A DNA stretch of 64,000 nt from Salibaculum halophilum (GTDB taxonomy: Bacteria > Pseudomonadota > Alphaproteobacteria > Rhodobacterales > Rhodobacteraceae), in contig NZ_MSIT01000009.1 of the NCBI RefSeq assembly GCF_002094885.1, positions 62,001-126,000 of the forward strand, read 5' to 3'. Both the position numbers and the translations under genes were made by a program. The notes under the pieces were generated by a model. The model searched no databases. It was not told the origin of the DNA and saw only the letters and a program-made list of their open reading frames with translations. Of this stretch, positions 20,472-25,624 are shown piece after piece; within the stretch, counting starts at the first letter, position 1; each line of letters begins with the position of its first letter.

Positions 20472-21272
20472 CTAGCCACCCCAGACGTAGACGGCCGCGA
20501 AGAGGAACAGCCAGACCACGTCGACAAAGTGCCAATACCAGGCGGCCGCCTCGAAGCCGACATGTTTTTGGGCGGTGAAATGGCCCATGTAGACACGGAT
20601 CAGGCAGACCAGCAGGAAGATCGTGCCGATGATCACGTGCGCGCCGTGAAAGCCGGTCGCCATAAAGAAGTTGGCGCCATAGATGTTGCCGGCCAGCCCG
20701 AAGGCCGCGTGGCTGTATTCGTAGGCCTGAAAGCCGGTGAAGATCACGCCCAGCAGCACCGAAAGGATCAGGCCGTGCTTCATGTCCTGGCGATTGTTCT
20801 CGTGCACCAGAGCGTGGTGCGCCCAGGTCGCGGCGGCCCCCGAACACAGCAGGATCAGCGTGTTGATCAGCGGCAGGTGCCAGGGATCGAAGGTCTCGAT
20901 GCCCGCCGGCGGCCACTGGCCATCGACCGCCGGGCTTTGCGGGCCCATCGGATACATGGCGTGCTTAAAGAAGCTCCAGAACCAGGCGGCGAAGAACATG
21001 ACCTCGGACATGATGAACATGATGAAGCCGTAGCGCAGGCCGATGCGGACGACCGGCGTGTGGTCGCCCTGCTGGCTTTCTGCGACGACGTCGGCCCACC
21101 AGCCGAACATCGTGTAAAGCACCGCCACCAGGCCGATCAGGAACATCCAGGGCGCCGAGCCGTCCATCCAGAGCACCGCCCCAAAGAGCATCACGAAGGC
21201 CCCGACCGCGCCCAGGAAGGGCCAGATCGAGGGGTTGAGGATGTGGTAGTCGTGGTTCTTTTCGTGCGCCAT
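20472..21272 (-). CDS. ctaE: cytochrome c oxidase subunit III
   Basis: 266 residues with seven predicted membrane helices. [21 protein letters not shown] is the standard alphaproteobacterial N terminus, with [24 protein letters not shown] and [16 protein letters not shown] further on, all characteristic of subunit III of aa3-type heme-copper oxidases. It belongs to the cta operon downstream of ctaG (23-base gap). Subunit I is not in the window, as usual for this group, where ctaD is elsewhere. Confidence 0.97.
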
Positions 21273-21295: not shown

Positions 21296-21922
21296 TTATT
21301 GATTTCGGGTCCGGTCGACCGGGGGGGTCGCCGTCATCGCCCCGGCTTTCAGGGCCGCCTGCTTTTCCTCTTCGGGCAGCGGCGCCTTGTGAAAGGTATA
21401 GCCCAGGGTGATGGTGTGGACATACTGGCCCTCGCGATCGTCGACGATGGCCGGGTCCACGTAGAAATTGACCGGCATCTGCATGGTCTCGCCCGGCTGC
21501 AGGACCTGCATCTCGAAGCAGAAGCAGTCGATCTTCTCGAAGAAACCGCCAGCGTCGTAGGGGGCCACGTTGTAGCTGGCACTCCCGGCGATCGGCGCGT
21601 CGCTGGTGTTGGTGGCCTCGTAGAAGGCCAGCGCCGTCTCGCCGATGCGCACTTCCATCTCGCGCTGCGCGGGCTTGAAGCGCCAGGGCATGTCGCGTTC
21701 AACCGACGCCTCGAAGCGCACGGTCACGGTCTTGTCGAGGATCTCGTCGCTGCCGGCCTCGGCCACGCCGGTCACCCCGCCGAAGCCCGTGACACGGCAG
21801 AACCAGTCGTAGAACGGCACCGAGGCCCAGGCCAGGCCGCCCATGAGCACAACGACGGTGACAGCCTGTGCGGCGGTGCGGCGGGGGCCGTCCTCGATGC
21901 GGTTGAAGAGGTTCATTTTCAT
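21296..21922 (-). CDS. ctaG: cytochrome c oxidase copper chaperone CtaG/Cox11
   Basis: 208 residues. One N-terminal membrane span ([22 protein letters not shown]) and a periplasmic immunoglobulin-like domain with the copper-binding CFCF motif in [10 protein letters not shown]. Cox11 delivers copper to the CuB site of subunit I. All key cysteines, including the one after the membrane span, are present. The ATG at 21922 overlaps the stop of the preceding small membrane protein by four bases. An internal ATG at 21916 is a possible alternative. Confidence 0.97.
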
Positions 21923-22141: not shown

Positions 22142-23077
22142 CTACCAGCCTCCCAGGCCATGGTTGCGCAGCAGCGCCTCGATCAGAAGGGCGCCGAAGT
22201 GGCCGAAAAGGTAATAGAGCGACGCCTTGAAGACCCGTTTCTCGGTCGCGTGGCTGTCGGCCTCGCTGGCGGCGTCGTCGCGGCGCCAGATCGCGAGCGC
22301 CCCCGAAAGGAACCAGCCGTTGAGCAAGAGCGCCGCCGCCAGGTAAACCGGCCCACCGACCTCGGTGAAGGCAATGGCCAGCGCCACCGGCACCAGCGCA
22401 ATGGTATAGCCAAGGATGTGGTTGCGGGTGGCGCGCCGGCCGTGCGTTTCGGTCAGCATGGGCACCTTGGCGTTGCCGTAATCGGATTTCACGAAAAGCG
22501 CCAGCGCCCAGAAGTGCGGCGGCGTCCACATGAAGATCAGCGCGAACATCAGCAGGCTTTCGGGTGCGATGCCGCCCGTGGCCACGGCCCAGCCCACCAT
22601 CGGCGGAAAGGCCCCCGCGGCCCCGCCGATGACGATGTTTTGCGGCGTCGTCCGCTTGAGCCACATCGAGTAGACGACTGCGTAGAAGAAGATCGTGAAG
22701 GCCAGCAATCCCGCCGCGAGAAGGTTCGTCGCCAGCGCCAGAAGGATGACCGAGAACCCCGACAAGGCCAGGCCGATGCCCAGCGCCTCGCCCGGCTGGA
22801 CCCGGCCCGCGGGGACGGGCCGCGATTGCGTGCGCGTCATCAAGGCGTCAATATCGGCGTCCCACCACATGTTGAGCGCGCCGGACGCCCCGGCGCCGAC
22901 CGCGATGCACAGGATACCGACGAAGGCGATGAAGGGATGCACCGCAACGGGCGCGGCCAGCAGACCCACCAGCGCGGTAAAAACAACCAGTTGCATCACG
23001 CGCGGCTTCATCAGGGCGTAGTAATCGCCCATCCGTGCCTCGCCGGGCTGCATGGTCTGCTGGGTAACGTCGGTCAT
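22142..23077 (-). CDS. ctaB: protoheme IX farnesyltransferase (heme O synthase)
   Basis: 311 residues, UbiA-superfamily integral membrane enzyme that farnesylates heme b to heme O for the aa3 oxidase. The Asp-rich motif NMWWDADIDALMTRTQSRP (residues about 73-92) is diagnostic for CtaB/CyoE. Family segments YYALMKPRVMQLVVFTA and KRTTPQNIVIGGAAGAFPP are also intact. It lies 67 bases after ctaC, in the usual order. Confidence 0.97.
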   Translation of the reverse strand: MTDVTQQTMQPGEARMGDYYALMKPRVMQLVVFTALVGLLAAPVAVHPFIAFVGILCIAVGAGASGALNMWWDADIDALMTRTQSRPVPAGRVQPGEALGIGLALSGFSVILLALATNLLAAGLLAFTIFFYAVVYSMWLKRTTPQNIVIGGAAGAFPPMVGWAVATGGIAPESLLMFALIFMWTPPHFWALALFVKSDYGNAKVPMLTETHGRRATRNHILGYTIALVPVALAIAFTEVGGPVYLAAALLLNGWFLSGALAIWRRDDAASEADSHATEKRVFKASLYYLFGHFGALLIEALLRNHGLGGW

Positions 23078-23144: not shown

Positions 23145-24017
23145 TCAGGCCGGGTATTCTTCCTTGGCGGTCGCCAGCCAGTCCTCGTAGGCCTCGGGAC
23201 TGACGACCTTGACGGTGATCGGCATGTAGGCGTGATCCTTGCCGCACAGCTCGGAACACTGACCGAAGTAGACGCCCTCGCGCTCGGGCTCGAACCACAG
23301 CTGGGCAAAGCGCCCAGGCACCGCATCCTGCTTCACGCCAAAGGCCGGGACCGTCCACGAGTGGATCACGTCCGCCCCGGTCACGGTCATGACAATAGTC
23401 GCCCCGGTCGGAACGACCACGGCCGTGTCGGTGGCCAGGCGGAACTCGTCCTCGGAATAGCCGGCCTCGACAAGCTGGTCGCGGATGCTGTCGTTCAGGT
23501 TTCCCTCGCCGTAACCGATCATGTAGCTTTCGAAGAAGATGTCCTCGTCGGTGTATTCGTAGGACCAGAACCATTGATAGCCCGTCACGGTGATGTTGAT
23601 ATCACCCTCGGGGATTTCCTGCTGCTTGAACAGCGTCGGCAGCGAGAACGAGCCGATGAAGACCAGGATGACGATCGGCACCACCGTCCAGGCCACCTCG
23701 AGCGGGGAATTGTGGGTAAAGGTCGCCGGTTCCTTGTTGGCCCGTTCATTGTAGCGCAGGATCACCCAGGCCAGCAGGCCAACCACGAGCAGCGTGATCG
23801 CGGTGATAATGATCAGGACCATGCCATCGAGCCACTGCAGGTCACGGGCGAGTTCGGTTGCGGCGGGCTGGAAGCCGGTGCCGCCCTGCTCGGGCTTGCC
23901 GATGATCTCGAGGTCGTCCATGCCCTGCTGGGCCGTGGCCGCCCCGGCGAGGGCGGCGGTTGCAAGGGCCGATCCGGCGGCGCGGCCCAGCGTGCTGACA
24001 AAGGTGTTCAGTCGCAT
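23145..24017 (-). CDS. ctaC: cytochrome c oxidase subunit II
   Basis: 290 residues from ATG 24017. Signal sequence [20 protein letters not shown] and Ala-rich cleavage region, two membrane helices (about 55-125), then a periplasmic cupredoxin domain carrying the dinuclear CuA site: HSWTVPAFG supplies the first histidine and [13 protein letters not shown] supplies the two cysteines, the glutamate and the second histidine. It accepts electrons from cytochrome c. First gene of the operon, preceded by a control region with an FNR-type box. A longer in-frame extension to 24194 has no homology. Confidence 0.97.
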
Positions 24018-24134
24018 GTCATTCCCTAAAGCAGTTCGGACCGCGGGGCTGGTGCCCCGTTGTCTTTCGTTTTGGTCATCCCATAATCTGGGGGGCAACT
24101 CAAGCGCGGCCATTGTGGCAAACGGTCGCTTTTT

Positions 24135-24148
24135 TTGATCTGGATCAA
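24135..24148. promoter_or_regulatory. perfect FNR/FnrL-type box
   Basis: TTGATCTGGATCAA matches the FNR consensus TTGAT-N4-ATCAA at all ten defined bases. It lies between divergent ctaC and tldD, 118 bases from the ctaC start and 31 bases from the tldD start. A class II activation position for tldD would put the transcript start inside the gene, so oxygen-responsive control of ctaC is the likelier role. That is inference. Confidence 0.7.
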
Positions 24149-24178
24149 ACCCCGGAGATCGCCCGGGCAGGAGGCCCC

Positions 24179-25624
<1,446 letters not shown>

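Follow-up and report, generated by a model that had tools for sequence, protein, structure and literature searches.

The intergenic region between ctaC and tldD of Salibaculum halophilum contains a perfect FNR-type palindrome, TTGATCTGGATCAA, which is very probably an operator of FnrL: at low oxygen, FnrL would bind to it and repress ctaC-ctaB-ctaG-coxIII, with tldD most likely a bystander. The region was analyzed within a stretch of 64,000 nucleotides of contig NZ_MSIT01000009.1, referred to here as the window, and coordinates are those of the window unless a locus is named. Judging from related bacteria, the direction of control would be repression at low oxygen and not activation, a sign that an earlier sequence-only reading of the window had not given. 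The known turn-down of the low-affinity oxidase at low oxygen would be extended in this way to another Rhodobacterales genome, and the conserved dyad that we found next to the operator leads to a concrete, testable hypothesis for the repression by FnrL at ctaC.

An FNR-type palindrome between ctaC and tldD

The palindrome lies between two divergently oriented genes. On the minus strand, ctaC (23145 to 24017; cytochrome c oxidase subunit II; TIGR02866, above cut-off) starts with ATG at 24017 and stands first in the operon that we propose to be regulated, which continues on the same strand with ctaB (22142 to 23077; heme o synthase; TIGR01473, above cut-off), ctaG (21296 to 21922; cytochrome c oxidase assembly protein; NF003465, above cut-off) and a subunit III-like gene (20472 to 21272), for which no model exceeded its cut-off and all four matches were subunit III families. 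On the plus strand, the metalloprotease gene tldD (24179 to 25624) starts with TTG at 24179 and is preceded by AGGAGG at 24169 to 24174. Measured from the center of the FNR-type site (24141.5), the start of ctaC is about 124 bp away and that of tldD about 37 bp.

The site itself (24135 to 24148, assigned to neither strand) corresponds to TTGAT-N4-ATCAA without any mismatch, confirming the perfect FNR-type site that the sequence-only reading had placed between the two genes. It is the only perfect TTGATNNNNATCAA match in the 64-kb window; with one mismatch allowed, two matches are found, compared to a mean of 0.44 in 100 shuffled sequences, of which 7 reach two. The whole genome (2.92 Mb) contains three perfect TTGATNNNNATCAA sites, the one described here included, and none for the backward control pattern, while a first-order Markov model built from the window predicts 0.013 perfect sites in 64 kb and 0.58 in 2.9 Mb. 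As for the other two perfect sites, TTGATGGTGATCAA (G000:C12:180988-181001; locus L001, 1501 to 1514) lies about 100 bp ahead of an rnhB-like gene, which is followed by an open reading frame for a CcrM-like methyltransferase (both named by eye), and TTGATGCAGATCAA (G000:C12:222295-222308; locus L002, 1501 to 1514) is flanked by THUMP-methyltransferase-like and exonuclease III-like genes, also named by eye.

FnrL and its candidate sites in the genome

The genome encodes FnrL (locus L005; NCBIfam NF045989, 423 bits against a cut-off of 300), with cysteines in the arrangement C-x2-C-x7-C-x2-C near the N terminus, as read by eye. HTH_Crp_2 gave 12 matches in the genome, 6 of them over the cut-off, and we looked at the best 3 of the 12: besides FnrL, these are a Crp/Fnr-type protein (L004) whose gene adjoins a norC-like open reading frame, named by eye, and a third member of the family (L006), which gave no NCBIfam match at 1e-10.

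Furthermore, the pattern TTGAYNNNNRTCAA occurs 12 times in the genome, with no occurrence of its backward control. Among its neighbors, ccoN (L133), ccoG (L132) and bchE (L127) are over their respective cut-offs, the cbb3 (high-affinity) genes ccoN and ccoG each having an FnrL-type site in front; ctaD (L130), a partial gene at the edge of its locus that scores 546 bits, below the cut-off of 671, is also beside such a site. Together, these neighbors look like a usual FnrL regulon. In particular, TTGATCTGCGTCAA is located about 185 bp upstream of ctaD (L130, 1501 to 1514), and thus both aa3 loci found in the genome have FnrL-type sites. The site adjoining bchE (TIGR02026, over cut-off) is TTGACATGAATCAA (L127, 1501 to 1514), and the presence of this gene points to a probable bacteriochlorophyll maker.

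Conservation of the site in relatives

Starting from 110 tldD loci, we removed 19 with a distance of over 300 bp to ctaC, 16 whose examined sequence included no divergent ctaC and 3 duplicates, which left 72 ctaC-tldD regions that still include two near-duplicate pairs. The FNR-type site is perfect in 23 of the 72 regions and present with at most one mismatch in 31, and at this tolerance it was not found in 41; six rearranged patterns used as controls matched 0 to 1 of the 72 regions, and coding pieces of equal length gave 0 of 286. On a quick TldD tree of the 72 rows, the state of the site changes 14 times, which indicates that the site is labile. The hypothesis that the palindrome occurs by chance and has no function could be argued from the relatives that lack it (41 of 72), but it is extremely unlikely in view of these controls, of the composite arrangement described below (36 of 149 genomes, against 0 for its backward control) and of the orthologous site in Rhodobacter sphaeroides, bound experimentally according to the part of PMC2908626 covered here.

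The presence of the site was also compared with that of FnrL in 30 loci, which represent 30 of the 51 genomes in which tldD was matched and were classified manually; in the case of L117, we counted the site in the vicinity of ctaC. Of the 23 genomes whose FnrL match reaches 60% identity, 15 have the site and 8 lack it, and none of the 7 genomes with a lower match or no match has it (one-sided, 0.003, uncorrected for kinship). The line of 60% was chosen with the data in view, and the outcome depends on it: with a threshold of 50%, the counts become 15 of 27 and 0 of 3 (one-sided p of 0.11, likewise uncorrected). This co-occurrence weakly supports FnrL as the probable user of the site. Another Crp/Fnr protein, e.g., L004 beside the norC-like gene, could use the site instead of FnrL, since at least two further proteins of this type are encoded in the genome (L004 and L006) and the peaks of CrpK and FnrL coincide at shared sites in R. 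sphaeroides, as reported in the covered part of PMC4263372. We consider this unlikely, given that the orthologous perfect site of R. sphaeroides was found by ChIP-chip of FnrL (PMC2908626, part covered) and that the site was not seen in the seven sampled genomes without a close FnrL, a class that depends on the threshold. The proposal of the sequence-only reading that the site puts the aa3 operon under FnrL is therefore supported by the FnrL gene, by the conservation in 31 of 72 regions and by the binding of FnrL to the orthologous site in R. sphaeroides, documented in the covered part of PMC2908626.

A dyad at fixed spacing from a -10-like element

Next to the FNR-type site, a dyad of the RegA/PrrA/RegR type (GYGNC-N5-GNCGC), GTGGCAAACGGTCGC, occupies positions 24115 to 24129 of the plus strand and is joined to the operator by a T run (24130 to 24134, plus strand), with which it was also scored as terminator-like. 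A -10-like CATAAT element, matching CATANY, is located at 24082 to 24087, with its first base 40 bp from the center of the dyad; it could belong to a -10 read toward ctaC or toward tldD and was assigned to no strand. The offset between dyad and CATANY is fixed in 43 of the 72 regions, one mismatch at the most being allowed over the two elements together, while for the remaining offsets from 25 to 45 the count is 0 to 6, and an AAG between the two elements is invariant in all 43 anchored regions.

In the window, the dyad has a T in place of the C at the second base of the GCGNC-N5-GNCGC-like form. Compared to the RegR consensus of Bradyrhizobium japonicum, GNGRCRTTNNGNCGC, taken from the covered part of PMC5506826, 4 of the 43 anchored dyads show no mismatch, 2 show one, 23 (including that of the window) show two and 14 show three, a fit that is partly forced by the anchoring pattern. 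An orthologue of RegA/PrrA is encoded in the genome (NF033791, 319 bits against a cut-off of 250). Binding of RegA, PrrA or RegR at a ctaC promoter was not found in the literature covered, which was seen in part.

In 24 of the 25 anchored regions that have the FNR-type site, its center is 17.5, 18.5 or 19.5 bp from that of the dyad. The CATANY-dyad pattern occurs in 91 of 149 genomes of the family, some of them by chance (13 genomes for the backward control, rows counted by hand), and the full composite of CATANY, dyad and FNR-type site in 36 of 149, with 0 for the backward control; in the genome of S. halophilum, the CATANY-dyad pattern is found at this locus only. A correlation between the FNR-type site and the dyad module on the tree gave no signal, the independent pairs being too few. 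In two loci, L051 and L122, an FNR-type site lies on the other side of the -10-like element, close to CATANY, with the spacing between dyad and CATANY unchanged.

The hairpin at 24115 to 24134 with its T run was also considered as a small RNA or attenuator, which we set aside as the principal reading: its pair 4-12 is of Watson-Crick type in 19 of 43 regions, near the shuffle level of 15.5 (13% of the shuffles reach 19), the other four pairs are complementary by construction of the anchor and hence uninformative, and no Rfam match was obtained in the 64-kb window. Two terminator-like sites were scored, compared to a shuffle mean of 0.6. The second of these hairpins is on the plus strand at 24043 to 24060, between the ctaC start and CATAAT.

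ctaC or tldD as the target

The sequence-only reading regarded activation of tldD as unlikely because of the distance of the site from the gene, which is valid only insofar as the site, at about 37 bp, is too near the gene for the usual activating position. Activation of tldD from -41.5 was rejected, since the TTG start, with its Shine-Dalgarno sequence, is only about 37 bp from the center of the site.

A search for sigma-70 promoters between 23980 and 24230 returned a single match, TTGTCT-16-CATAAT (24060 to 24087, plus strand), which agrees with the consensus at 9 of 12 positions (shuffles: mean 0.0, standard deviation 0.2) and faces tldD, not ctaC. Its -35-like element, TTGTCT (24060 to 24065, plus strand), has TTG columns that are kept among the 43 anchored regions. 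It is possible that this is a promoter toward tldD overlapping the CATAAT element.

Where the two genes are apart, tldD has no site nearby when up to one mismatch is allowed, whether in the 19 separated loci or in the 16 whose examined stretch lacks a divergent ctaC. Near ctaC, such a site is present in 4 of the 19 separated loci, in two of which, L083 and L092, its position is on the coding side of the ctaC start as extrapolated; moreover, among four ctaC loci from Roseibium-type genomes, two have a perfect copy some 300 bp upstream of the gene. In genome G025 (L117), the site is 148 bp upstream of ctaC, where the dyad, with one mismatch, also stays, and an alpha/beta-hydrolase-like gene, named by eye, lies at about 540 to 1500 between the ctaC module and tldD. 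This arrangement would fit ctaC as the target without proving it; tldD and the hydrolase-like gene may belong to one operon, and for this reason the separated gene pairs are only partly decisive. The genomes of L030, L033 and L055, in which no close ctaC was found, are uninformative on the target gene.

These data bear on the alternative that FnrL mainly represses tldD, acting as a roadblock about 48 bp inside the transcript from TTGTCT-16-CATAAT, perhaps with the dyad as an attenuator. Such a role is favored by the 9-of-12 promoter match on the plus strand, with its conserved TTG and CATANY columns, by the hairpin and T run in 24115 to 24134 and by the possible hydrolase-tldD operon transcribed in G025 from a tldD-facing promoter, and it would agree with the comparative prediction in the covered part of PMC2908626, which places the U62 peptidase set 1083 in the FNR regulon. 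However, the R. sphaeroides gene RSP1825 is not oxygen regulated according to the same part of PMC2908626, a dyad that simply lay within a transcribed stretch would not be expected to keep a rigid spacing to CATANY, the count of complementary 4-12 pairs in the hairpin is near the shuffle level, and none of the 35 loci in which tldD is away from ctaC has a site nearby. We therefore consider tldD a quite unlikely main target.

A possible mechanism of repression

FnrL is the oxygen-labile member of the Crp/Fnr regulators in Rhodobacterales, and FNR proteins hold their iron-sulfur cluster at low oxygen and dimerize. When oxygen drops, FnrL would thus keep its cluster, dimerize and bind at 24135 to 24148, and the bound FnrL would repress the divergent operon of the low-affinity aa3 oxidase. 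Taking the complement of 24083 to 24088 as the leftward -10, the start of ctaC transcription is predicted near 24076, which would place the center of the dyad at about -46 and that of the FNR-type site at about -65.

We take the arrangement as a hint of a composite redox switch: FnrL, as we infer, would block the factor bound at the dyad. The play of 1 to 2 bp between the FNR-type site and the dyad, compared to the rigid spacing between dyad and CATANY, suggests that FnrL may hinder by occupancy and that the dyad factor may be phased with the polymerase. As for the repression step, the likeliest one in our view, though we would not call it probable, is that FnrL at about -65 blocks a factor on the RegA/PrrA-type dyad at about -46 or otherwise hinders the polymerase. 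With similar caution, it is possible to hypothesize that the ctaC promoter of Rhodobacterales carries a RegA/PrrA-type site at one exact distance from the -10 and an adjoining FnrL operator, repeatedly gained or lost, from which FnrL evicts or blocks the regulator, and that the divergent tldD promoter shares the -10. If this were true, two oxygen or redox sensors would compete for one short stretch at the ctaC promoter.

Class I activators are typically centered at -61.5. FnrL could be an activator of this class for ctaC, considering that the predicted position of about -65 is near this value and that in 24 of the 25 anchored regions with a site the operator is upstream of the predicted start. 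This is very unlikely, because the orthologous operons are repressed (PMC5398030 and PMC2908626, parts covered) and because in L051 and L122 the site is close to the predicted start, a position unexpected for activation. Repression of ctaC by FnrL remains the reading that we prefer.

Comparison with known systems

That an FnrL site represses the aa3 operon is already known from relatives, as far as the parts of the papers covered go. In R. sphaeroides, Dufour et al. (2010; PMC2908626) list, in the part covered, FnrL by ChIP-chip at the coxII operon RSP1826-9 with the site TTGATtcagATCAA and the sign "-", as well as coxI with TTGATctggATCAA and the same sign, whereas the tldD-like gene RSP1825 is reported as neither oxygen regulated nor bound by FnrL. 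Since the peak is at RSP1826 and RSP1825 was nevertheless called unbound, assigning the peak to one gene was, on the text covered, a judgement. The same part of that study predicts, for 27 Rhodobacterales species, an FNR regulon made up of 20 orthologue sets. In Dinoroseobacter shibae, Ebert et al. (2017; PMC5398030, part covered) report that ctaCBGE and ctaD are repressed anaerobically and that FnrL mediates the repression of aa3.

For R. sphaeroides, Imam et al. (2014; PMC4263372) list coxI with the sign "-" in the covered section on CrpK and FnrL; in the main text, as far as covered, coxII, RSP_1826 and ctaC do not occur, and no strong PrrA consensus is reported. Our literature search returned no paper on tldD with FnrL and no reported transcript start for coxII, and among the matches listed for PrrA/RegA with aa3 or ctaC, the titles and the beginnings of the abstracts do not describe the promoter pair. 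Within the literature covered, seen in part, we did not find a description of the dyad at fixed spacing or of the eviction model.

The dyad resembles the published RegA/PrrA/RegR motifs insofar as GNGRCRTTNNGNCGC fits it with two mismatches, and the dyads of 4 of the 43 anchored relatives with none; in the covered part of PMC5506826, these motifs are degenerate and dissimilar to one another. The coxII operon of R. sphaeroides is like the one described here in that the same form of operator is found at the subunit II operon and that the U62 peptidase gene RSP1825 is next in numbering (PMC2908626, part covered). It differs in the central four bases of the listed site, and its operator was tested experimentally, whereas the role of ours is deduced from the sequence. 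Lastly, the FnrL regulon of D. shibae, as described in the covered part of PMC5398030, comprises the same operon and follows the same logic as we propose for S. halophilum, where, without oxygen, cbb3 would go up and aa3 would go down.
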